From an uncultured Ruminococcus sp. (lineage in GTDB: Bacteria > Bacillota > Clostridia > Oscillospirales > Acutalibacteraceae), in assembly GCA_902762375.1 (NCBI GenBank), contig CACWNY010000003.1:1-64000 (forward strand): a stretch of 64,000 nt of DNA, written 5' to 3'. This document shows, in pieces, positions 1 to 61,433 of this stretch; the stretch's first letter is position 1; the number at the start of each line of letters is the position of its first letter. Under the pieces are notes generated by a model. The model did not search any database. It was not told the origin of the DNA and saw nothing but the letters and a program-made list of their open reading frames with translations. A program made the translations under genes and the position numbers.

Positions 1-98
1 GGACACACGGGGTTAGCTCGCTGATACTGTACAGGTTGCTGTACTTGAACGAGAAGCCCCCGCCTCTAAGCGAAGCGTAGGCGGCGGGAGTATGTCAC
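1..98 (+). ncRNA. Right end of an IS200/IS605 element with TnpB omega-RNA scaffold tail (partial)
   Basis: The window opens inside what looks like the 3' end of a TnpB transposon. Positions 52-92 carry the characteristic GAAGCCCCCGCCTC - TAAGCGAAGCG - TAGGCGGCGGGAG stem-loop found at right ends of IS605-type elements, followed by TATGTCAC. In this family the right end doubles as the omega-RNA (reRNA) scaffold and the bases just outside, here from about 99, act as guide. The tnpB gene itself would lie left of the window. Pattern recognition only; the exact end (about 98) is inferred. Confidence 0.6.
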
Positions 99-99
99 A

Positions 100-152
100 T
101 GAAATATTGTTTCATTTTAGTTAATGAAATTTATATATATTTGTGTTATAAT
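100..152 (+). promoter_or_regulatory. Promoter block of the first VanW gene
   Basis: TATAAT at 147-152 has a -35-like ATGAAA at 124-129 with a 17-nt spacer. The whole block GAAATATTGTTTCAT (101-115) plus TTTAGTTAATGAAA is nearly repeated at the same distance from TATAAT upstream of the second VanW gene (49158-49207), which argues for a shared regulatory site rather than chance. Confidence 0.65.
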
Positions 153-214
153 GAAACGAACCGTGTTCGAATCGAAAATACCTGGTCTGATTTGATAAGG
201 AGTGCGATAATGTA

Positions 215-3945: not shown

Positions 3946-4108
3946 ATTAAAAATCAAATAGTTATTGTCAAAATTTGCTGACGCAAATTTTGTTTTGAAT
4001 TTTTATTCATTAAAGGGCTTCGCCCTTTAAAATCCCACAAGGGGCTTTGCCCCTTGACCCCACCACTTTTTGAAAAAAGTGGACAAAAACTTTTAATTGT
4101 CATAGCTA
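3946..4108 (+). repeat. MITE family copy 2 (forward)
   Basis: Starts just after the DUF512 stop with the AT hairpin CAAAATTTGCTGACGCAAATTTTG, followed by the AAGGGC, AAGGGGC and CCAC...GTGG hairpins and ends at GTCATAGCTA. The terminal inverted repeat is decayed (GCGATTAAAAATCAAATAG). Confidence 0.85.
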
Positions 4109-5473: not shown

Positions 5474-5730
5474 GGGCAGTTTAAGGGCAGTTTAAGGGCA
5501 GTTTAAGGGCTACCGCCCTTAAAAATCCTGTTAAGGGGTTGCCACCCCTTAACCCCGCCCACTTTTTTGAAAAAAAGTGGACAAAAAACTTTTAATTTTC
5601 ACCGCCGAACTTCTGATAAACAATCCGAACGAAGTGAGCCTTGAAAGTTTTTGTCGAACTTTTTTCAAAAAGTTCGTGGGGTTCAGGGGCAAAGCCCCTG
5701 ATGGGATTTTAAAGGGCAAAGCCCTTTAAC
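5470..5730. repeat. MITE family dimer, copy 3, with tandem 11-bp units
   Basis: The 306-bp der-plsY gap is almost all repeat. Three and a half tandem units of TTAAGGGCAGT (5470-5510) lead into a forward copy with a CCAC...GTGG hairpin; the junction AATCCGAACGAAGTGAGCC follows, then an inverted copy with a CGAAC...GTTCG hairpin. Confidence 0.85.
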
Positions 5731-7499: not shown

Positions 7500-7510
7500 T
7501 TAACACAAAA

Positions 7511-7546
7511 AACAGTGCAGTAAATTTTTACCGCACTGTTTTTTAT
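7511..7546 (+). terminator. Terminator after the zinc-ribbon gene
   Basis: AACAGTGCAGTAAA pairs with TTTACCGCACTGTT (one mismatch), followed by TTTTATTTT. It closes the der-plsY-side transcript. Confidence 0.85.
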
Positions 7547-7570
7547 TTTGATGGAATTCAAATAATTAAA

Positions 7571-7651
7571 GTTTAGGTCAAGCCTTTTTAAAGGCTTGTG
7601 GGGTCGAGGGGCAAAGCCCCTCGTGGGATTTTTAAGGGCAAAGCCCTTAAA
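7571..7651 (-). repeat. MITE family copy 4 (reverse)
   Basis: The third hairpin here is AGCCTTTTTAAAGGCT and the second is CGAGGGGC/GCCCCTCG, both compensated variants of other copies. It abuts the stop codon of the minus-strand gene at 7652. Confidence 0.8.
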
Positions 7652-10874: not shown

Positions 10875-10915
10875 AGTGTTTTACCTCCTTGCAAGGAAAC
10901 TGAAAGATAAAAAAT

Positions 10916-11127
10916 TTCCACCTGAACGGTTGGCACTAAAAACAACTTATAGCTATGACAATTAAAAGTTTCGGTCAAGCCTTTTCAAAGGCTTGTGGGG
11001 TCAAGGGGCAAAGCCCCTTGTGGGATTTTTAAGGGCGAAGCCCTTCTTAAACTCACAAAAATTCCAAACAAAATTTTCGTAAGAAAATTTTGACAATAAC
11101 TATTCGATTTACAACCGCTCAGTTAAA
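10916..11127 (-). repeat. MITE family copy 5, near full length
   Basis: Both ends are present in diverged form: TTCCACCTGAACGGTTG (10916-10932) and CAACCGCTCAGTTAAA (11112-11127). The third hairpin is the AAGCC...GGCTT variant. The rest of the 433-bp gap holds a small AATGCCC/GGGCATT hairpin (11167-11186) and the promoter of the next gene. Confidence 0.85.
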
Positions 11128-11232
11128 AAGATTTTCTTTCAATGAATATTGCTATTGTTGAAAAAAATGCCCTCAAATGGGCATTAATGCACATTTAACA
11201 GAAAAATTAAAAAAAATCATATATTATAACCA

Positions 11233-11307: not shown

Positions 11308-13962
11308 GTGAAAATGAAAAATAGCAAAAAAATTATGTCGGCAATACTCACCGCTTTGATGGTGCAAAGTATATTGACAACAGGTTTCGCCGTGACAACT
11401 TCGGCATATGAAACTCCTGTAAACGAAAGTACCGCACAAACACAGGTACAGGAAAGTAAGGACGGTGTTTATGGTGATTTTGAGTACAGCGTATCAGATG
11501 GAAAAGTTACCATAAACAAATACACGGGCAGTGATACAGAGGTTGTTATACCGTCTGAAATTGAAGGTATGCCTGTAATAACTATTAGAAATTTTGCATT
11601 TCAGAGTTGCAGAAATTTAGTGCATCTAACAATACCTGATAGTGTAACAAGTATGAGTGCGAATGCGTTTTTTATTTGTGTTAATTTAACGGATGTAACA
11701 GTAGGAAGTGGAATGAGAAAAGGATTAGGTTTTGAAACATTTAGCTATTGTGAAAAATTGACAAATATAAATGTGAGCAACGATAATATTACATATAGTT
11801 CTGAAGACGGAGTTTTGTTCAATAAAGATAAGACTGAAATTCTTTTTTATCCTGAAGGAAGAACAGATTCAAGTTATACAATACCAGATAGCGTAATTAA
11901 TATAGGAAAATATTCTTTTTATTCATTTCATAGCCATTTAACAAGTATAACAATGGGAAATAATGTGACTGATATTGGTGATTATGCTTTTGGAGAGTGT
12001 AATAATCTGAAAAATGTAACGATGTCAGATAATTTAAAAAATATTGGTGAATATTCTTTTTCTTTTTGTAGAAATTTAACGAATTTAAATATGCCAGGTA
12101 GTGTAACAAATATAGGTTATAACGCATTTTATGGTTGTGGTTTAACAAGCGTAGTTATACCTGAAAGTATGACAAAGATAGGATGTAGTGCGTTTTCTGG
12201 TTGTGGTTTGATAAATGTAACTATACCTGACAGCGTGACAAATGTCGGTGAAAATGCTTTTTCTTACTGTAATAATTTAATCAGTGCAACGATAGGAAAT
12301 GGTATGACTAACCTCACAGATTATATCTTTTCTAATTGTAGTAACTTGACAAGTATAACAATAGGAAACAGTGTGAGCGATATCAGTGATTATGCGTTTA
12401 GTTATTGTAGTAGTTTAACAAATATCGATGTAAGTAATGACAATGATAATTATAGTTCAATAGATGGAATATTATTTAATAAAAATAAAACAGAAATTGT
12501 TCGCTATCCTGCAGGGAAAACAAACACGAATTATATTATACCTGATAGTGTGACGAGCATTGGAGATTACGCATTTGGTGAATGCAACAATTTGACAAGT
12601 ATAACGATACCTCATAGTGTAATAAATATCGGCAATTATTCATTTACTTGGTGTGAAAATTTAACTGATATAACTATACCTGATGGTGTGACAAGCATGG
12701 GTAACAATGTATTTTCTTATTGTAGAAATTTGGTTAGTGTTAATATACCAGAAGGTATAAATAGCATTGATGATTATGCGTTTTATGAATGTAGCAGTTT
12801 AATGAATATCATCATACCTAATAATATAGAAAAAATCGGTGATTATGCGTTTTGTGGTTGTGCAAGTTTAGTTAATATAATGATGCCTGCTAGTGTGAGA
12901 GAAATCGGTAGATATGTATTTTCAGGTTGTAGCAATTTAAAGGATGTCAGTATATCTGATGGTTTAACTTACATAAGTGACGGAGCATTTAGTTATTGCG
13001 ATAATTTAAAGGAGATAACTATACCGAAAAATGTGAAAAGTATTGGTGACTGTTCTTTTAATTGGTGTGATAATCTAATAAGTATAAATTTACCCATTAG
13101 TTTGGAGTATATATATCCTCACGCATTTTCTTATTGTAATAGTTTAACGGATATATATTATGCTGGCGGTGTAGAACAATGGAAAAATGTATCTGTTATT
13201 CAAATTTATAATAGCTGGTTTGAAAATGCTAAGGTACACTATAATTGTCCGAATGTAGTATTGGATAAAGAAGAACTGACTTTAGAAGTAGGACAGATGT
13301 ACACCCTGACAGCGACAGTCAATCCCCCGACAGAAACCGCTTTCACATGGAAAAGTAACAACACTACGGTTGCTACTGTAAATGGTAGCGGAAGAGTTGT
13401 TGCAAGAGGTGAGGGTACAGCAACAATTACGGTAATCAGTTCTGACGGTAAGAGAGCTTATTGTACAGTAACAGTATCACCGAAAAAAGAAATTGTTCTG
13501 GATAAAACGGAACTGAACTTGTCCGTAAAAGAGCAGTATACTTTAAGCCCGTCCATGTCGCCTGAAGATACAACCGTTACTTATACATTCAAGAGTAATA
13601 ACACCGCTGTAGCCACAGTGAACAAGGCAGGAAGAATTGTGGCAAGAGGTGAGGGTACAGCAACAATTACGGTTATCGGTTCTAACGGTCTGAAAGCCTA
13701 CTGTACGGTAAATGTCACACCGCAAAAGGTACTTGTTCTGGACAAAACAGAACTGAATTTGTCAGTGAAAGAACAATACACCTTAAATCCTTCTATCGTT
13801 CCCGAAGATACAGAGGTTACTTACACTTTCAAAAGTGACAATACCACTGTAGCTACAGTCAACAAAGCAGGAAGAATTGTCGCCAGAGGTACAGGTACGG
13901 CAAAAATCACCGTAAAATCTTCAAACGGTCTTACCGCCGTATGTAATATTACAGTTGAATAG
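11308..13962 (+). CDS. Secreted BspA-type leucine-rich-repeat protein with Big_2 domains
   Basis: An 884-residue protein with a signal peptide (about 1-35, ending near TTSAYE) and about 25 LRR_5 repeats of the BspA type (consensus IPDSVTSIGDYAFxxCxxL), broken twice by SNDNxxYSSxDGxLFNK segments typical of the family. Three bacterial Ig-like group 2 domains (LDKxELxLxVxxxYTL ... ARGxGTATITV) form the last 250 residues. Such proteins act at the cell surface in adhesion or binding; the ligand is unknown and no anchor is visible. AGAAAGG is 5 nt before GTG 11308 and 11 nt before ATG 11314; either may be used. Confidence 0.9.
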   Translation: MKMKNSKKIMSAILTALMVQSILTTGFAVTTSAYETPVNESTAQTQVQESKDGVYGDFEYSVSDGKVTINKYTGSDTEVVIPSEIEGMPVITIRNFAFQSCRNLVHLTIPDSVTSMSANAFFICVNLTDVTVGSGMRKGLGFETFSYCEKLTNINVSNDNITYSSEDGVLFNKDKTEILFYPEGRTDSSYTIPDSVINIGKYSFYSFHSHLTSITMGNNVTDIGDYAFGECNNLKNVTMSDNLKNIGEYSFSFCRNLTNLNMPGSVTNIGYNAFYGCGLTSVVIPESMTKIGCSAFSGCGLINVTIPDSVTNVGENAFSYCNNLISATIGNGMTNLTDYIFSNCSNLTSITIGNSVSDISDYAFSYCSSLTNIDVSNDNDNYSSIDGILFNKNKTEIVRYPAGKTNTNYIIPDSVTSIGDYAFGECNNLTSITIPHSVINIGNYSFTWCENLTDITIPDGVTSMGNNVFSYCRNLVSVNIPEGINSIDDYAFYECSSLMNIIIPNNIEKIGDYAFCGCASLVNIMMPASVREIGRYVFSGCSNLKDVSISDGLTYISDGAFSYCDNLKEITIPKNVKSIGDCSFNWCDNLISINLPISLEYIYPHAFSYCNSLTDIYYAGGVEQWKNVSVIQIYNSWFENAKVHYNCPNVVLDKEELTLEVGQMYTLTATVNPPTETAFTWKSNNTTVATVNGSGRVVARGEGTATITVISSDGKRAYCTVTVSPKKEIVLDKTELNLSVKEQYTLSPSMSPEDTTVTYTFKSNNTAVATVNKAGRIVARGEGTATITVIGSNGLKAYCTVNVTPQKVLVLDKTELNLSVKEQYTLNPSIVPEDTEVTYTFKSDNTTVATVNKAGRIVARGTGTAKITVKSSNGLTAVCNITVE

Positions 13963-13972
13963 TCCTTTTATG

Positions 13973-14013
13973 ATTGTGCAGAGTTTCCTATAGGAAATTC
14001 TGCACAATTTTTG
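13973..14013 (+). terminator. Terminator of the BspA-like gene
   Basis: ATTGTGCAGAGTTTCC pairs with GGAAATTCTGCACAAT around a TATA loop (one G-T wobble) and runs into TTTTT. It starts 10 bp after the stop codon. Confidence 0.88.
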
Positions 14014-14110
14014 CTGTTGAAAAGAAATATTTTCTCCAAAAAATGGGATATCTTATTGCAAAAAAAGACAAAGTTCTTTATAATAGGTACGAGGATAACA
14101 TTATTTTTAT

Positions 14111-14367
14111 CTGAGCAGTTGAAAGGTAAGTAATTATTGTCAAAATTTGCTTTGGCAAATTTTGTTTTAAATTTTTGGGAGTTAAAGGGCTTTGCCCTTT
14201 AAAATCCCACAAGGGGCAATGTCGTCAACTTAAGAAAAAAGCCTTTTCAAAATAATATATTGCTGTCATTCTGAGGAGCAAAAGCAACGAAGAATCTTCA
14301 AAAGATTCCTCAGACCCCGTCCACTTTTTGAAAAAAAGTGGACAAAAACTTTTAATTGTCATAGCTA
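14111..14367 (+). repeat. MITE family copy 6 interrupted by a second repeat
   Basis: Starts with a decayed terminal repeat (CTGAGCAGTTG), the AT hairpin and the AAGGGC hairpin, breaks off inside the second hairpin at AAGGGG, resumes at GACCCCGTCCACTTTTTG and ends GTCATAGCTATA. Confidence 0.82.
14216..14313 (-). repeat. Repeat 2 inserted in MITE copy 6
   Basis: Begins CAATGTCGTCAACTTAAG and contains GTCATTCTGAGGAGC and GAAGAATCTT...AAGATTCCTCA. Parts are inverted relative to the copies at 26691 and 28698, so it looks rearranged. No target duplication is visible. Confidence 0.7.
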
Positions 14368-14431
14368 TAAGTTGTTTGATAATTCTAACTGTTTAGATAG
14401 CATTATTTTCAATTCAAAGGAGGAAATTTTT

Positions 14432-15811
14432 TTGGAGAAACTGTTTAAACTCAAAGAAAACGGTACGACTGTCAGAACAGAAATTGTTGCGGGTATCACC
14501 ACATTTTTGACGATGGCATATATTATCTTTCTGAACCCTACCGTCATCGGAAAAAGCAATCCTGCACTGGCAGATTTGCCCGGAACTATGGAAGATACGG
14601 CTGTCATTACAGCAACCTGTATCGGTGCAGCACTTGGCACATGGTTAGTGGGGTGGCTTTCCAACTATCCTATGGCACAAGCTCCAGGACTTGGACTGAA
14701 TGCGGTATTTGCGTACACATTGTGTCTGACTTTCGGACTTTCGGCAAGTGCGGCACTGGCAGGGGTATTTCTGGCGGGACTGTTCTTTATTTTCCTGACA
14801 GTCACGGGAGCAAGAAAAGCTATTGTTGAGGCAATACCTTACAGTCTAAAGAAGGCAATTTCGGCAGGTATAGGATTGTTTGTCGCTATCATAGGCTTTT
14901 CCAACGCAGGTATTGTTATCGGGCAAAGCAGTGGTTCACCTACTATTATTGATATGGGCAGTTTTGCCGACCCTAAGGTTATGATGGCAGTTTTCGGACT
15001 GATTATTATTGCTATTCTTGTCATACAAAAGGTAAGGGGAGCAATATTTATTGGTATGATAGTTACCGCCCTGATAGCGAATGTTTGTCAGTTTGTATTT
15101 GATGTTGATATGGGAATTACCGCTCCGACAAGTTTAGTACCTGTTTTTGATTTTTCGATGTTCGGAAAATGTTTTACAGGATTTGGGGAATTATTTTCCG
15201 CACCTATTGCGTCATTGCTTGCGGTACTGATTACCTTGCTGATGGTAGATATGTTCGACACTATAGGCACACTCATTGGTGCAGCTGACAAGGCAGGCTA
15301 TCTTGACGAAAACGGCAACCTGCCTAAAATTGAAAGAGCTATGTTGGCAGACGCTCTGGCAACATCAGCAGGAGCAGTTTTCGGTACTTCAACCGTAACA
15401 ACCTATGTAGAATCCACAGCAGGTATTGCGGCAGGCGGAAGAACAGGTCTGACTTCTACCGTTACAGGAATTTGTTTTGCCTTATCTTTGTTTTTGTCAC
15501 CAATTGTCGGACTTGTCCCCACAGCGGCAACCGCACCTGTATTAATCATTGTCGGCATTATGATGTGTTCGTCTTTGAAAGATATCGACTGGGCTGATTT
15601 GGAAGTGGCTATTCCTTGTTTCTTTGTGGTTGTGGGAATGCCGTTTTTCTGGTCAATTACGGACGGTATTGCTTTCGGTTTTATTTTCTACACAGTGGTA
15701 AAAGTAGCAAGAGCAAAGTTCAAAGATATTCACCCGATTATGTATGTAGTTGTAGGTTTGTTTATTCTCATGTACATACTCAGTTCATTACAAGGTCTGG
15801 GTATTCTGTAA
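14432..15811 (+). CDS. NCS2/AzgA-type purine permease
   Basis: A 459-residue integral membrane permease of the AzgA/PbuG group (hypoxanthine, guanine or adenine uptake by proton symport). Seen are TTFLTMAYIIFLNP, the AQAPGLGLNAVFAY loop, DMFDTIGTLIGAADKAG and the ESTAGIAAGGRTGLT motif characteristic of this branch, with about 12-14 membrane segments. TTG 14432 is chosen as start: AAAGGAGGAAA is correctly spaced and the family usually begins at this MEKLFKLKENGT position. The in-frame upstream ATG 14372 lies before the ribosome site. No purine riboswitch was recognised upstream. Confidence 0.93.
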   Translation: MEKLFKLKENGTTVRTEIVAGITTFLTMAYIIFLNPTVIGKSNPALADLPGTMEDTAVITATCIGAALGTWLVGWLSNYPMAQAPGLGLNAVFAYTLCLTFGLSASAALAGVFLAGLFFIFLTVTGARKAIVEAIPYSLKKAISAGIGLFVAIIGFSNAGIVIGQSSGSPTIIDMGSFADPKVMMAVFGLIIIAILVIQKVRGAIFIGMIVTALIANVCQFVFDVDMGITAPTSLVPVFDFSMFGKCFTGFGELFSAPIASLLAVLITLLMVDMFDTIGTLIGAADKAGYLDENGNLPKIERAMLADALATSAGAVFGTSTVTTYVESTAGIAAGGRTGLTSTVTGICFALSLFLSPIVGLVPTAATAPVLIIVGIMMCSSLKDIDWADLEVAIPCFFVVVGMPFFWSITDGIAFGFIFYTVVKVARAKFKDIHPIMYVVVGLFILMYILSSLQGLGIL

Positions 15812-15827
15812 AAGACAAACGAAGTAA

Positions 15828-15920
15828 ACCGAAAAAGTTTTTGACCCACTTTTTTCAAAAAGTGGGTGGGGTTCAGGGGCAAAGCCCCTGATGGGATTTT
15901 TAAGGGCAAAGCCCTTAAAC
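15828..15920 (-). repeat. MITE family copy 7 (reverse)
   Basis: Carries the dimer-junction remnant CAAACGAAGTAAACC (15820-15834), then hairpins CCCACTTTTTTCAAAAAGTGGG, CAGGGGC/GCCCCTG and AAGGGC/GCCCTT. An open frame that reads through it into the next gene is an artefact. Confidence 0.83.
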
Positions 15921-15946
15921 AGAAGTTATCTTTAGGAGAAATTATT

Positions 15947-16912
15947 TTGAAACTATCTAAAAAAATCTTGTCGACAGTGCTGACAGCAGTCATGGTACAG
16001 AGTGTACTTACTGCAACAGTTGTCATGAATGTTTCGGCAACACAACAGAATAACAGTATCGTTGTCAGTCAGGCAACAGCAATATCGCTGGATAAAACAA
16101 CACTTTCTTTAAAAGTCGGCGATATGTACACACTCACCGCTACAAACAATACAGGTACAACCATCACATGGAAAAGCAGTAACGCAAATGTTGCCACAGT
16201 CAATTCCAAAGGAAGAGTTGTTGCCAGAGGTCTGGGAACGGCAAACATTACTGCTATCACATCAGACGGTTATAAAGCAGTCTGTACCGTTACCGTAAAA
16301 CAAAAGCCTACAGTTTCACTCAATAAAACATCTTTGACACTCAGAGAAAAAGATATCTATACTTTAACAGCAACTGTAACACCGCAGGATTCGGAAGCAA
16401 CTGTTACTTTCAAGAGCAGTAATGCAAATGTTGTCACAGTCAATTCCAAAGGAAGAATTGTTGCCAGAGGACAAGGTACAGCGACGGTCAAAGCTATCGT
16501 TACAGGCGGAGCAACGGCAAGTTGTGAGGTAACGGTACAACAAAGCTATGTTGATGAAGTGATAGAGCTTGTCAATATTGAAAGAGAAAAAGAAGGTTTA
16601 TCTCCGCTTGAGAAAAGGGAAGATGTCTGTGAATTGGCGGATATCAGAGCTGAAGAATTGGTAGAGGAATTTTCACATACTCGCCCTGATGGAAGAAGTT
16701 GTTTTACTGTATTCACGGATTACGATGTCAGTTGGTCTGCTGTAGGAGAAAATATTGCCGCAGGATATCGCACACCGCAGGCAGTAATGAATGGCTGGAT
16801 GAACTCCAGCGGACATAAAGCTAACATTCTCAGTCAGAAATTTACAGGTATTGGTGTAAGTATGTATGAACAGAATGGCGTAAAATATTGGGTACAGCTT
16901 TTTATCCGATGA
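15947..16912 (+). CDS. Secreted Big_2 - CAP (SCP-like) domain protein
   Basis: A 321-residue exported protein: signal peptide (about 1-31), two Ig-like group 2 domains (about 45-200) and a C-terminal CAP/SCP domain (about 205-321) with FSHTRPDGRSCF, GENIAAGY and GWMNSSGHKANIL, including the family's conserved His and Glu. Bacterial CAP proteins are surface or secreted proteins of mostly unknown activity. TTTAGGAG lies 9 nt before TTG 15947, giving MKLSKKILSTVLTAVMVQSV, whose signal peptide closely matches that of the BspA-like protein. Codons before this TTG come from MITE DNA. Confidence 0.88.
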   Translation: MKLSKKILSTVLTAVMVQSVLTATVVMNVSATQQNNSIVVSQATAISLDKTTLSLKVGDMYTLTATNNTGTTITWKSSNANVATVNSKGRVVARGLGTANITAITSDGYKAVCTVTVKQKPTVSLNKTSLTLREKDIYTLTATVTPQDSEATVTFKSSNANVVTVNSKGRIVARGQGTATVKAIVTGGATASCEVTVQQSYVDEVIELVNIEREKEGLSPLEKREDVCELADIRAEELVEEFSHTRPDGRSCFTVFTDYDVSWSAVGENIAAGYRTPQAVMNGWMNSSGHKANILSQKFTGIGVSMYEQNGVKYWVQLFIR

Positions 16913-25356: not shown

Positions 25357-25434
25357 TGACACACTTTTTTACTGAAAATAGCACAAGTTTCCTAAATTGC
25401 GAATTGTTGTTTGATTTTCAAACAATGCAAAAAT

Positions 25435-25621
25435 TTCTACCTGTGCGGTTGGAATGATATTCCCATTGTATAGCTGTGACAATTAAAAGTTTTGTCCACT
25501 TTTTCAAAAGTGGTGGGGTCAAGGGGCAAAGCCCCTTGTCTTAAACTCATCAAAATTCAAACAAAATTTGCGTAAGCAAATTTTGACAGTAACTATCTGA
25601 TTTTCAACCGCACAGGTAGAA
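25435..25621 (-). repeat. MITE family copy 9, complete with perfect terminal inverted repeats
   Basis: TTCTACCTGTGCGGTTG (25435-25451) is exactly inverted at 25605-25621. In between are GTGACAATTAAAAG, CCACTTTTTCAAAAGTGG, AAGGGGCAAAGCCCCTT and the AT hairpin AAAATTTGCGTAAGCAAATTTT; the AAGGGC hairpin is deleted. 187 bp in total. The remainder of the 25357-25823 gap holds only the terminator below. Confidence 0.93.
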
Positions 25622-25637
25622 CAAACCTGATATTTTT

Positions 25638-26655: not shown

Positions 26656-26858
26656 TTAAGGGCTTTGCCCTTAAAAATCCCACAAAGGGCAATGTCGTCA
26701 ACTTAAGAGTGTCATTCCGAACGAAGTGAGGAATCTTTTGAAGATTCTTCGTCGCTTTCGCTCCTCAGAATGACAACAATATACCACAAAGGGACTTTGT
26801 CCCCTTGACCCCTACCACTTTTGAAAAAGTGGACAAAACTTTTAAATGTCACAGCTAT
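26656..26858 (+). repeat. MITE family copy 10 split by repeat 2
   Basis: Hairpin AAGGGCTTTGCCCTT, then CCACAAAGGG, a 94-bp insertion, then CCACAAAGGGACTTTGTCCCCTT, CCACTTTTGAAAAAGTGG and GTCACAGCTATACA. Confidence 0.85.
26691..26784 (+). repeat. Repeat 2 (94 bp) flanked by a 10-bp target duplication
   Basis: Runs from CAATGTCGTCAACTTAAG to CAACAATATA, with internal inverted TGTCATTC (26711-26718) and GAATGACA (26768-26775). CCACAAAGGG is present directly on both sides (26681-26690 and 26785-26794), the mark of insertion into the MITE. Confidence 0.8.
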
Positions 26859-34020: not shown

Positions 34021-36068
34021 ATGAAAACAGGCAAAAAAGTTCTCACGCTGATGTTGGCTTGTGCTATGGTGACAAGTACGGCTTATATGTCTTACAGCGT
34101 TGTGGACAATGCAACAGTTAAACTACATCTGACGGCTGGGAGTACACAGTCAATAGTAACGGTACAGCTACAATTACAGGTTACAGTAAAAAAAGTGGAG
34201 ATTTAATTATTCCTAATACCGTTGATGGTAAAACAGTTACAGAGATAGGAAAACAGGCTTTTCGAAATAAAACAGGTTACCAAAATTTAACTGTACCAGG
34301 TACAGTTAAACTGATTGGTGTAGAAGCTTTTAGTGGTTGTACAGGTTTACGAAGTATTGATATTCAAAACGGTGTTGAAACTATAGGAAAGAGAGCTTTT
34401 TCTGGTTGTATAGGCTTGAACAGTATTAATATTCAAGAAGGTGTTAAAACAATTGAAAGTATTGCTTTTTCTGATTGTACAGCACTGACAAGCGTAAAGT
34501 TACCTGATAGTGTGGAAACAATAGGAAGTATAGACGATTACTTTTCATCTGATGGTGTTTTTTATGGATGTTCGAAATTAACAACGGTAACACTTGGTAA
34601 AAATCTTACTACAATTGGTAGTGGTACTTTCAAAAAATGTACTAAACTCTCCACTGTAGAATTTGCTGGTCAAAATATTGCGGAAATCGGACATTCGGCT
34701 TTTGCAGAAACTGCATTAGAAAATATTGTTATTCCTAATAAAGTTAAAGAAATAAGAGAGCATACTTTTGAATATTGCAAAAGTCTTTCAAGCGTTACTT
34801 TTCCCGAAAATCTCGAAACTATCGATGAAACAAGTTTTATAGGTTGTAGTGTATTAACAAATATCAAAATTCCTGATAAAGTAACTTCTATAGGAAGCAA
34901 AGCTTTTGAAGATTGTACTTCTTTGGAAAATGTTCAATTTGGTCATTCTGTTGAAATAATAGGTGACGGTGCATTCGCGAATACTAAAGTTAAGAGTATC
35001 ATCTTACCAGATGGTTTAAAGGATATCGGTGATGGATTTTTGGTTGGAATTTTTGAGGGTTGTAAAGAATTGAAAACAGTAGTATTCCAGAGTAGTGAAG
35101 ATACGGAATTTACAAATATTCCATCAAGAATGTTTAAGGATTGCACAAATCTTACAGATGTAAATATTTTAGCTACGGTAACAACAATTGAGAGCAGTGC
35201 GTTTGCAAATTGTACATCTTTAGAAAGTATTATTCTTCCTGAAAGTGTAACAGTTATTGAAAACTTCGCTTTTGGTAATTGTACTTCTTTGAAAAAAATT
35301 GTTATTCCTGAAAGCGTTACAAACATAACAGGTGGTAGGTGGAGTAGTTCGTTTGACGGACACAGTGATGAACTTACTATTTACGGTTACACAGGAACAA
35401 GAGCAGAAAATTACGCAAACGAAGAGAATATTAAATTTGTAGCTTTAGACGGACATATCCACGAAAGTGAAACATATATTACAGAGGCTACTTGTGAAGA
35501 CGGCGGAATGAAAATTACAAGATGTAAGATTTGTGGTCATCTTGAACTTGAAAAAACTGAATACATCGCCCCTAAAGGACACAAAAACCTTACTGTAACA
35601 AAAGAACCTACCTGCACAGAAAACGGAGAAAAAACAGGTACTTGTTCAGATTGCGGTAAAACTGTTACAGAGATTATTCCTGCATTAGGTCATAGCTGGA
35701 GTGAGTGGACTGTAGACCCCGATAACGATAAACAAGAAGTAAGAATTTGTGCAAACTGTGGTGAAAAAGAATACAGAGATATTGATACACCTGTACTACC
35801 TACAGACCCCACACCTGTGCCACCTACAGACCCCACACCTGTGCCACCTACAGACCCCACACCTGTACCACCTACAGAACTCCCTACATTCGACCCTATT
35901 CCTGAACCCACACCAGCTCCTACACAAGAACCTACAACAGACCCTCGACCTGATGGCAAAGTTGTAGATACTGGGGCAACAGCACCATTGATGGCTGTAT
36001 TTACACTTATAGCGTCCTCTGTTTCAGTAGCGTTGCTGAAAAAACGCAGAAAAAATGACACAGATTAA
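34021..36068 (+). pseudogene. BspA-type leucine-rich-repeat surface protein with a single-base frameshift
   Basis: ATG 34021 (GGGAGAGG 7 nt upstream) opens a signal peptide, but the frame dies at 34206. From 34122 the next frame continues without a stop to 36068: DGWEYTVNSNGTATITGYS, then about 18 LRR_5 repeats, two Cys-pair HxExYITEATC-type segments, a TDPTPVPP proline-threonine spacer and a C-terminal VVDTGATAPLMAVF...KKRRK membrane anchor resembling a sorting signal. One extra A in the AAA run at 34120-34122 would restore one frame of about 680 residues. It could be a true mutation, slippage-based phase variation, or an assembly error. Confidence 0.85.
35787..35882 (+). repeat. 24-bp tandem repeat, four units
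   Basis: Four head-to-tail units encode (TDPTPVPP), the wall-spanning spacer of the LRR protein. Units 2 and 3 are identical, the outer ones differ at a few positions, which marks it as a likely length-variable site. Confidence 0.85.
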
Positions 36069-38906: not shown

Positions 38907-38912
38907 AAATTA

Positions 38913-39107
38913 TTCACCTGTGCGGTTGAAAGTCAGATAGTTACTTTCAAAATTTGCTTTTCGGGAGTTTAAGGGCTACCGCCCTTAAAAATCCTGCTAA
39001 GGGGCTTTGCCCCTTAACCCCACCACTTTTTTGAAAAAAAGTGGACAAAAAACTTTTAATTGTCATAGCTATACATTGAGAAAATCATTCCAAATGCACA
39101 GGTGGAA
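38913..39107 (+). repeat. MITE family copy 14, both ends present
   Basis: TTCACCTGTGCGGTTG (38913-38928) is inverted in CACAGGTGGAA (39097-39107). The AT hairpin is truncated; loop ACC replaces TTCG in the first hairpin (GGGCTACCGCCC). Its right end contains AGGTGG, used as the ribosome site of the next gene. Confidence 0.9.
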
Positions 39108-40681: not shown

Positions 40682-40788
40682 TTTAAGGGCTTTGCCCTTA
40701 AAAATCCCATCAGGGGCTTTGCCCCTGAACCCCACCACTTTTTGAAAAAAGTGGACAAAAACTTTTTTGGCTCACTTCGTTCGTTTTT
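40681..40788 (+). repeat. MITE family copy 15 with half junction
   Basis: AAGGGC, CAGGGGC and CCAC...GTGG hairpins directly after a TAG stop, ending in GGCTCACTTCGTTCG, the dimer junction without its second half. Confidence 0.84.
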
Positions 40789-55060: not shown

Positions 55061-55258
55061 TTTCTATCTGTGCGGTTGGAATGATATTCTTATCATATAG
55101 CTATGACAAATAAAAGTTTTTGTCAACTTTTTTCAAAAAGTTGTGGGGTCAAGGGGCAAAGCCCCTTGTGGGATTTTTAAGGGCGAAGCCCTTAAACTCC
55201 CCAAAATCCAAACAAAATTTGCGTCAGCAAATTTTGACAGTAACTATTTCATTCTCAA
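55061..55258 (-). repeat. MITE family copy 20 (reverse)
   Basis: TTTCTATCTGTGCGGTTG end, GACAAATAAAAG, CAACTTTTTTCAAAAAGTTG (another compensated third hairpin), AAGGGGC, AAGGGC and AT hairpins; the right end is decayed. It lies just beyond the stop of the Rrf2 gene. Confidence 0.88.
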
Positions 55259-61110: not shown

Positions 61111-61136
61111 CAGAGTTCAGCAATCGAACGCCTTTA

Positions 61137-61433
61137 GTTTAAGGGCTGTCGTAGTTTAAGGGCTGCCGCCCTTAAAAATCCTGCTAAGGGGCTGCCGCCC
61201 CTTAACCCCGCCCACTTTTTTGAAAAAAAGTGGACAAAAAACTTTTAATTGTCACCGCTGACACTCGGATAAACAATCCGAACGAAGTGAGCCAGAAAAG
61301 TTTTTGTCGAACTTTTTTCAAAAAGTTCGTGGGGTCAAGGGGTGAAACCCCTTGTGGGATTTTAAAGGGCGAAGCCCTTTAATGACTAAAAATTCAAAAC
61401 AAAATTTGCGTATGCAAATTTTGACATTTAGAA
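61137..61433. repeat. MITE family dimer, copy 22
   Basis: Forward part with duplicated TTTAAGGGCTG starts, GGGGCTGCCGCCCC and CCCAC...GTGG hairpins, junction CAATCCGAACGAAGTGAGCC, inverted part with CGAAC...GTTCG, AAGGGGTGAAACCCCTT and the AT hairpin. It fills most of the 61111-61559 gap. Confidence 0.87.

Follow-up and report, generated by a model that had tools for sequence, protein, structure and literature searches.

Paired hairpin chains in an uncultured Ruminococcus: a new, widespread form of REP/MITE-like repeats

The focal element and its copies in the window

The window, a stretch of 64,000 nucleotides from an uncultured Ruminococcus sp., contains between two convergent genes a chain of three hairpins with a tail (the focal element; 7567-7651, minus strand), recognized from its sequence. 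Read 5' to 3' on the minus strand, it consists of TTTAAGGGC-TTT-GCCCTTAAA, AATCC, CA, CGAGGGGC-TTT-GCCCCTCG, ACCCC, A, CAAGCC-TTTAAAAA-GGCTTG and ACCTAAACTTT. Hairpin 1 (7631-7651), hairpin 2 (7605-7623) and hairpin 3 (7579-7598, delimited by sequence and fold) are all perfectly paired, and the A-run of the tail (7567-7578; ACCTAAACTTTA) equals the T-run of hairpin 3 at three nucleotides. The first-pass annotation had given this copy a third-stem type of its own, AGCC/GGCT; the stem is instead of the AAGCC/GGCTT type seen at 10978, and all the other arm variants it listed are indeed present. Folded as RNA, the element reaches -37.4 kcal/mol (z of -6.0 for the minus strand and -3.1 for the plus strand). 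The neighboring minus-strand gene encodes a protein of 773 aa with a GDSL-lipase-like C-terminus, and its TAG, at the border with the element, is directly followed by TTTAAGGGC; past the element, at 7505-7546, lies an intact bidirectional terminator-like hairpin. The focal element was not found at the orthologous site in the sister species G002 and G003.

The chain recurs across the window. The plus-strand copy at 4010-4096 carries an additional hairpin 0 (AAATTTGC-TGAC-GCAAATTT) in front, and the genomes G003, G001, G005 and G004 have no element there; hairpin 0 is also present in the minus-strand copy at 55110-55235, whose third hairpin is of the CAAC/GTTG type. Two palindromic copies, to which no strand is assigned, lie at 2383-2583 (201 bp; 1-2-3 ... 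3'-1') and at 5502-5729 (1-2-3 ... 3'-2'-1'), the latter with a left end that provides the upstream gene's stop codon, and missing from G001, G004 and G005. A form with terminal inverted repeats is seen around hairpins 0-3 at 10912-11132 (minus strand; MITE-like), at 25433-25623 (minus strand; hairpin 1 mostly gone) and at 38910-39106 (plus strand). The minus-strand copy at 15866-15919 falls within a region (15811-15923) where G002 shows an ordinary terminator and promoter.

At window positions 40682, 19680, 5474 and 7652 the adjacent gene takes its stop codon from the element or has one that directly overlaps it (TAGTTTAAGGGC, ATTAAAGAGC, GGTTAAGGGC); thus, insertion took place at the extreme end of coding sequences. 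Just past a gene that receives its stop codon from the element, the left arm of hairpin 1 occurs four times in tandem at 5474-5523 (GTTTAAGGGCA repeats, then the full hairpin), and similar partial repeats are present at 61136-61176 and L004:109. A different small repeat (GCAATGTCGTCAACTTAAG ... GACAACAATATA) lies inside hairpin 2 of an element at 26676-26790, flanked on both sides by an apparent duplication of ~10 bp (CCACAAAGGG); a related insertion is found at 14205-14310.

Copy number and modular forms

Copies were read from 1.55 Mb of the 2.45 Mb draft assembly; these 1.55 Mb contain ~500 non-coding copies of the chain, with 511 clusters bearing hairpin 1, 2 or 3; the elements make up roughly 4% of the sequence read. 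The chain order is constant: hairpin 1, AATCC, hairpin 2, ACCCC, hairpin 3 and an A-rich tail, the full module order being an optional hairpin 0, hairpins 1, 2 and 3, and then AATTGTCATAGCT or GGCTCACTTCGTTCG. Hairpin 1 is represented by 660 copies (568 perfect, in 11 perfect stem types) and hairpin 2 by 450 copies (397 perfect, in 11 stem types); the stems of hairpin 3 include GTGG, GTTCG, GTTTG, GGCTTG, GTTG and others. Modules reshuffle between copies. In ~25 copies (L013, L014, L020, L044, L048, L050 and others) the TTTGAA top of hairpin 3 is swapped for GCCCTC or CCCCC with stem and tail kept.

The first-pass annotation called these elements MITEs, a label that suits a subset. The terminal-inverted-repeat form has ends of ~20-25 bp with the core CCACCTGTGCGGTTG, spans ~180-250 bp, contains no gene and is flanked by A/T-rich target duplications of 8-9 bp (for example, AAAATTCC and GAATTTTT). 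There are 24 paired inverted-repeat ends in the 1.55 Mb, close pairs mostly spanning ~180-440 bp, and empty sites for this form were seen directly in G002 opposite window positions 10905-11140 and L037 13321-13519. Most of the ~500 copies, however, show neither terminal inverted repeats nor target duplications. The palindromic form (1-2-3 ... 3'-2'-1') is commonly 201 or ~228 bp long, the difference of 27 bp corresponding to one module; it accounts for 40 clusters, single chains being more frequent, and shows no visible target duplication.

Distribution across Clostridia

A hairpin 1 motif, AAGGGCNNNGCCCTTNNAAATCC, has 562 matches with at most one mismatch in the 2.45 Mb genome (none for the reversed control) and 101, 210, 155, 0 and 64 matches in five species of the genus; it is almost absent from the 34 other genera sampled. 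Presence and absence of insertions differ between sister species, copies having been gained and lost quickly. G004, of the same genus, has no exact motif and a few diverged chains (3 covariance model matches), and therefore the burst in its sisters is recent.

Covariance models extend the family to further genera. With a first model, built from 54 copies, 40 of 200 genomes from the family and 43 of 295 from the order yielded related chains. A second, comprising hairpin 2, hairpin 3 and the tail from ~20 genera, recovered chains in 97 of 394 genomes, representing 56 of the 168 genera sampled from the order, and had matches also in other orders of the class. In these other genera the stems differ in sequence and remain paired. 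Rfam gave no match above the gathering score in the window and no relevant match in four related loci, and nothing on the motifs or on such repeats in Clostridia was found in the literature available outside subscription journals. A family that occupies ~4% of a genome and has no Rfam match is thus liable to confound assembly, RNA-motif searches and annotation in Clostridia.

Both arms of the hairpins change together

With the right arm alone as anchor, the left arm follows it (AAA/TTT, TAA/TTA, AAC/GTT, GAA/TTC and GAC/GTC). Over the 15 nt that separate the two arms, hairpin 1 has a normalized mutual information of 0.91 (0.85-0.97) and hairpin 2 one of 1.00, and the covariation score in this genome is 0.286 against 0.082 +- 0.007 in 500 shuffles. 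Such a pattern could arise without true covariation if a few founder stems had been tied together by ancestry, module swapping or gene conversion, given that most differences lie between subfamilies with many identical copies and that modules reshuffle. The loops serve as a control for this, since common descent, or the exchange of entire hairpins, would tie the loop no less tightly than the far arm. For loop and arm, separated by 6 nt, the value is 0.13-0.17 (0.18-0.21 over all copies). The right arm of hairpin 1 lies 7 nt from the left arm of hairpin 2, and for these two it is 0.15; hairpins 2 and 3 give 0.16. Loops and neighboring hairpins, although nearer, are hence almost unlinked to the arms, and phylogeny or gene conversion cannot explain the linkage between the arms.

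A tree-aware null gave a concordant result. It follows the idea of R-scape rather than its code: for 193 distinct rows, the parsimony changes on three FastTree trees (two of them blind to one hairpin) were re-placed randomly in 500 replicates and scored with an APC-corrected G statistic. On each of the three trees, three column pairs reached E<0.05, all of them base pairs, and of the 1523 column pairs that are not base pairs 0 were significant. Independent genera agree: in the alignment across genera, 95.5% of the cells are paired and two-sided changes occur at 13 of the 17 pairs. Its covariation score of 0.502 compares with 0.174 +- 0.015 for shuffles and 0.08-0.18 for slid structures. As the consensus structure (RNAalifold) was derived from the same alignment, the comparison with slid structures is inflated; that with shuffles is not. 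On the linkage control and the tree-aware null we reject founder stems or gene conversion as the origin of the covariation, and we regard an account in these terms as very improbable. The original observation that both arms change together is thereby borne out with phylogeny and gene conversion taken into account. Hundreds of young copies in one genome and relatives in dozens of genera constitute a large and clean natural data set, in which loops and neighboring hairpins act as internal controls that separate covariation from ancestry.

Resident copies and their genomic surroundings

In 344 elements with at most three deviations, the deviation rate is 0.5-1.6% for stems and 0.9-1.1% for linkers, and no constraint on stems relative to linkers was seen in these resident copies, a comparison that at ~1% divergence has limited power for weak constraint. 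Single-arm mismatches show no excess of G.U over A.C (54 versus 65; p 0.36), and there is therefore no sign of selection for RNA wobble pairs on either strand. The resident copies look neutral, and the evidence points away from an RNA function in each copy. Accordingly, pairing is probably kept in those copies that get copied, that is, through mobility, or else is made by template switching. The earlier proposal, that pairing as RNA or as cruciform DNA is maintained, is thus supported in part: the covariation and the independent genera bear out that pairing has been maintained, but not that it is kept as RNA in the resident copies; repeats can covary without a functional RNA in each copy.

One could still suppose that the elements act at the host level, as terminators or stabilizers of mRNA 3' ends kept paired by host selection. 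With genes taken as the ORFs called by a simple script rather than from curated annotation, the copies are almost all intergenic (392, versus 13 overlapping ORFs). Of the copies that lie between co-directional genes, 42% begin no more than 30 bp from the stop codon of the upstream gene. Orientation antisense to the upstream gene is commoner (132 versus 87; p 0.003), and divergent gene pairs have somewhat fewer copies between them (p 0.06 in the overall context test). In a simple scan, antisense hairpin 2 followed by TGGGATTTTT is terminator-like, and the copy at 15811-15923 stands in place of a normal terminator. The elements may have a role in 3' ends. Against host selection stand the resident stems without constraint, the missing G.U excess and the position of the antisense U-tract, which begins 4-5 nt past the stem. 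On the sense strand a U-tract directly after the stem was found in 0 of 660 copies of hairpin 1, 0 of 450 of hairpin 2 and 0 of 519 of hairpin 3. The focal copy, moreover, adjoins an intact terminator, and gain and loss between species is rapid. On balance, maintenance of the pairing by the host appears improbable.

Hairpin 3 and its tail

The tail is coupled in length to hairpin 3. Let n be the length of the hairpin's T-run, m that of its A-run and p that of the tail A-run: 477 of 508 copies (94%) then obey m = n+1 and p = n, and n = 4, 5 and 6 all occur within the one GTGG stem type. In other genera p = n holds for 46 of 48 distinct sequences from ~29 genera, a number that counts a few single loci without assignment, including one from this genome; shuffling gives a mean of 39% and a maximum of 62%. 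In the cross-genus set, 69% of cases have one G fewer ahead of the tail A-run than the stem has Cs (after shuffling, 43% on average and at most 65%). The tail therefore tends towards a copy of the purine arm; on the opposite strand this appears as a U_nC tract parallel to the A_nG arm. Antiparallel T_nG/CA_n pairing with the tail was considered and rejected, as it fits the types with one stem C and fails for those with a G before the A-run.

The match between T-run and tail A-run points to an unrecognized structural requirement, and from these sequence patterns the coupling hints at a three-strand fold, as in a triple helix. In such a model the purine arm would be joined, on one strand, by a pyrimidine tract running parallel to it (U.A-U and C+.G-C), and on the other strand the third strand would be of purines. 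That hairpin 3 and the tail form a selected three-stranded fold, by which a family of mobile hairpin chains spanning the class Clostridia might be recognized, is a speculative proposal that we think unlikely in this full form.

How the compensated changes arose

Abundant stem types (12-251 copies) are all perfect, and mismatched types number fewer than ~10 copies. Within the conserved stem, hairpins 1 and 2 show ~6 private compensated doubles alongside ~90 single-arm changes, where ~0.4 would be predicted under independence. Hairpin 0 has 26 compensated double changes, 6 single-arm changes and no uncompensated doubles, its 26 doubles being probably few events multiplied by copying. This pattern of compensated doubles fits selection in copied lineages or template switching alike.

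Template switching during DNA replication, which copies one arm onto the other, would produce perfect stems and changes in both arms without any function of the fold. It is documented to yield multiple compensatory changes, stem extension and loop inversion, and both makes and keeps hairpins (PMC8794818). Our elements resemble those hairpins in their perfect stems, instantaneous both-arm changes and occasional loop inversion; those hairpins were shown in rRNA genes, whereas the present ones belong to a mobile repeat with an additional coupled tail. The excess of private compensated doubles speaks for such a process, as do the many doubles of hairpin 0 with almost no intermediates, the few inverted loops and the lack of a G.U bias among the intermediates. 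Yet single-arm mismatches remain in 14% of hairpin 1 copies, and single-arm intermediates of several conversions exist (C.A and T.G closing pairs; GTC/AAC). Inverted loops, too, are rare (3 of 660 for hairpin 1, 2 of 450 for hairpin 2 and 3 of 128 for the GTAA loop of hairpin 0). Template switching alone would not give perfect pairing across genera, the equality of tail A-run and T-run, or the relation between tail Gs and stem Cs. As a full explanation we consider it rather doubtful.

Mobility and likeness to known repeats

Together these observations indicate that the fold matters to something, most likely to the copying of the repeat. We propose, with about even confidence, that these are non-coding, mobile REP- and MITE-like hairpin chains whose pairing is kept by selection on mobility in the copied lineages. 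We favor this reading because the common stem types have no mismatches, because other genera keep the pairing as well, and because the tail adds a third part to the coupling. In such a scheme the enzyme that copies or inserts the chain would recognize a single-stranded folded form, as DNA or RNA, and new subfamilies would be founded only by copies whose hairpins are intact and paired and whose tail fits hairpin 3; after insertion, mostly just 3' of genes, each copy would decay neutrally. Counting against selection on mobility, the MITE-like form ends in ordinary inverted repeats, and to such ends hairpins in the interior should make no difference; nor did the searches described below bring up a mobilizing enzyme.

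As in the REP/REPIN elements of Pseudomonas and E. coli, which are mobilized by RAYT Y1 transposases, the repeats are high-copy, intergenic short palindromes, often in inverted pairs, and compensatory changes on both hairpin sides have been reported as common in REPINs (PMC3116915). They differ in that each chain strings together three or four unlike hairpins, its linkers and tail being conserved, and in that several carriers have no match to the Y1 transposase family; the GTAG or CGTC at the stem foot of REP/REPINs is rare here (20 of 660 copies of hairpin 1 and 6 of 450 of hairpin 2). With MITEs a subset shares terminal inverted repeats, the 8-9 bp target duplication, a length of ~180-250 bp and the absence of genes; most copies have no such ends, and the 201/228 bp palindromic form, without visible target duplication, is a further difference. 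The BOX-type repeats of streptococci are likewise modular, intergenic and hairpin-forming, with a variable number of modules. Compared with these by description rather than by sequence, the module order here is constant and the stems covary.

A Y1/RAYT transposase was rejected as the mobilizer in this genus: its domain (PF01797) is absent from G001, G003 and G005, which have 64-155 motif copies, and the PF01797 gene is interrupted in G000 and G002. No autonomous transposase with the same inverted-repeat ends was seen in the 1.55 of 2.45 Mb of the draft assembly. Two long-spaced inverted-repeat pairs (L076 and L048), considered as possible bounds of an autonomous element, contain ordinary host genes. 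An all-against-all comparison of the 1.55 Mb for multi-copy transposases returned only an OrfB/TnpB-like gene, although collapsed repeats could hide another.

At the start of the window (1-214) lies the right end of an IS605-type OrfB/TnpB element, part of which is probably a guide-RNA-like hairpin stretch. This right-end sequence recurs behind an intact TnpB-like gene (L066:17593-18687; OrfB_IS605 and Cas12f1-like TNB domains). Repeats of other kinds are also seen in the window: a gene for a BspA-type leucine-rich-repeat protein with 69-bp repeats and Big_2 domains (11308-13962), the same 69-bp repeat at 34277-36068, and DNA repeats of ~240 bp at 13337-16544.
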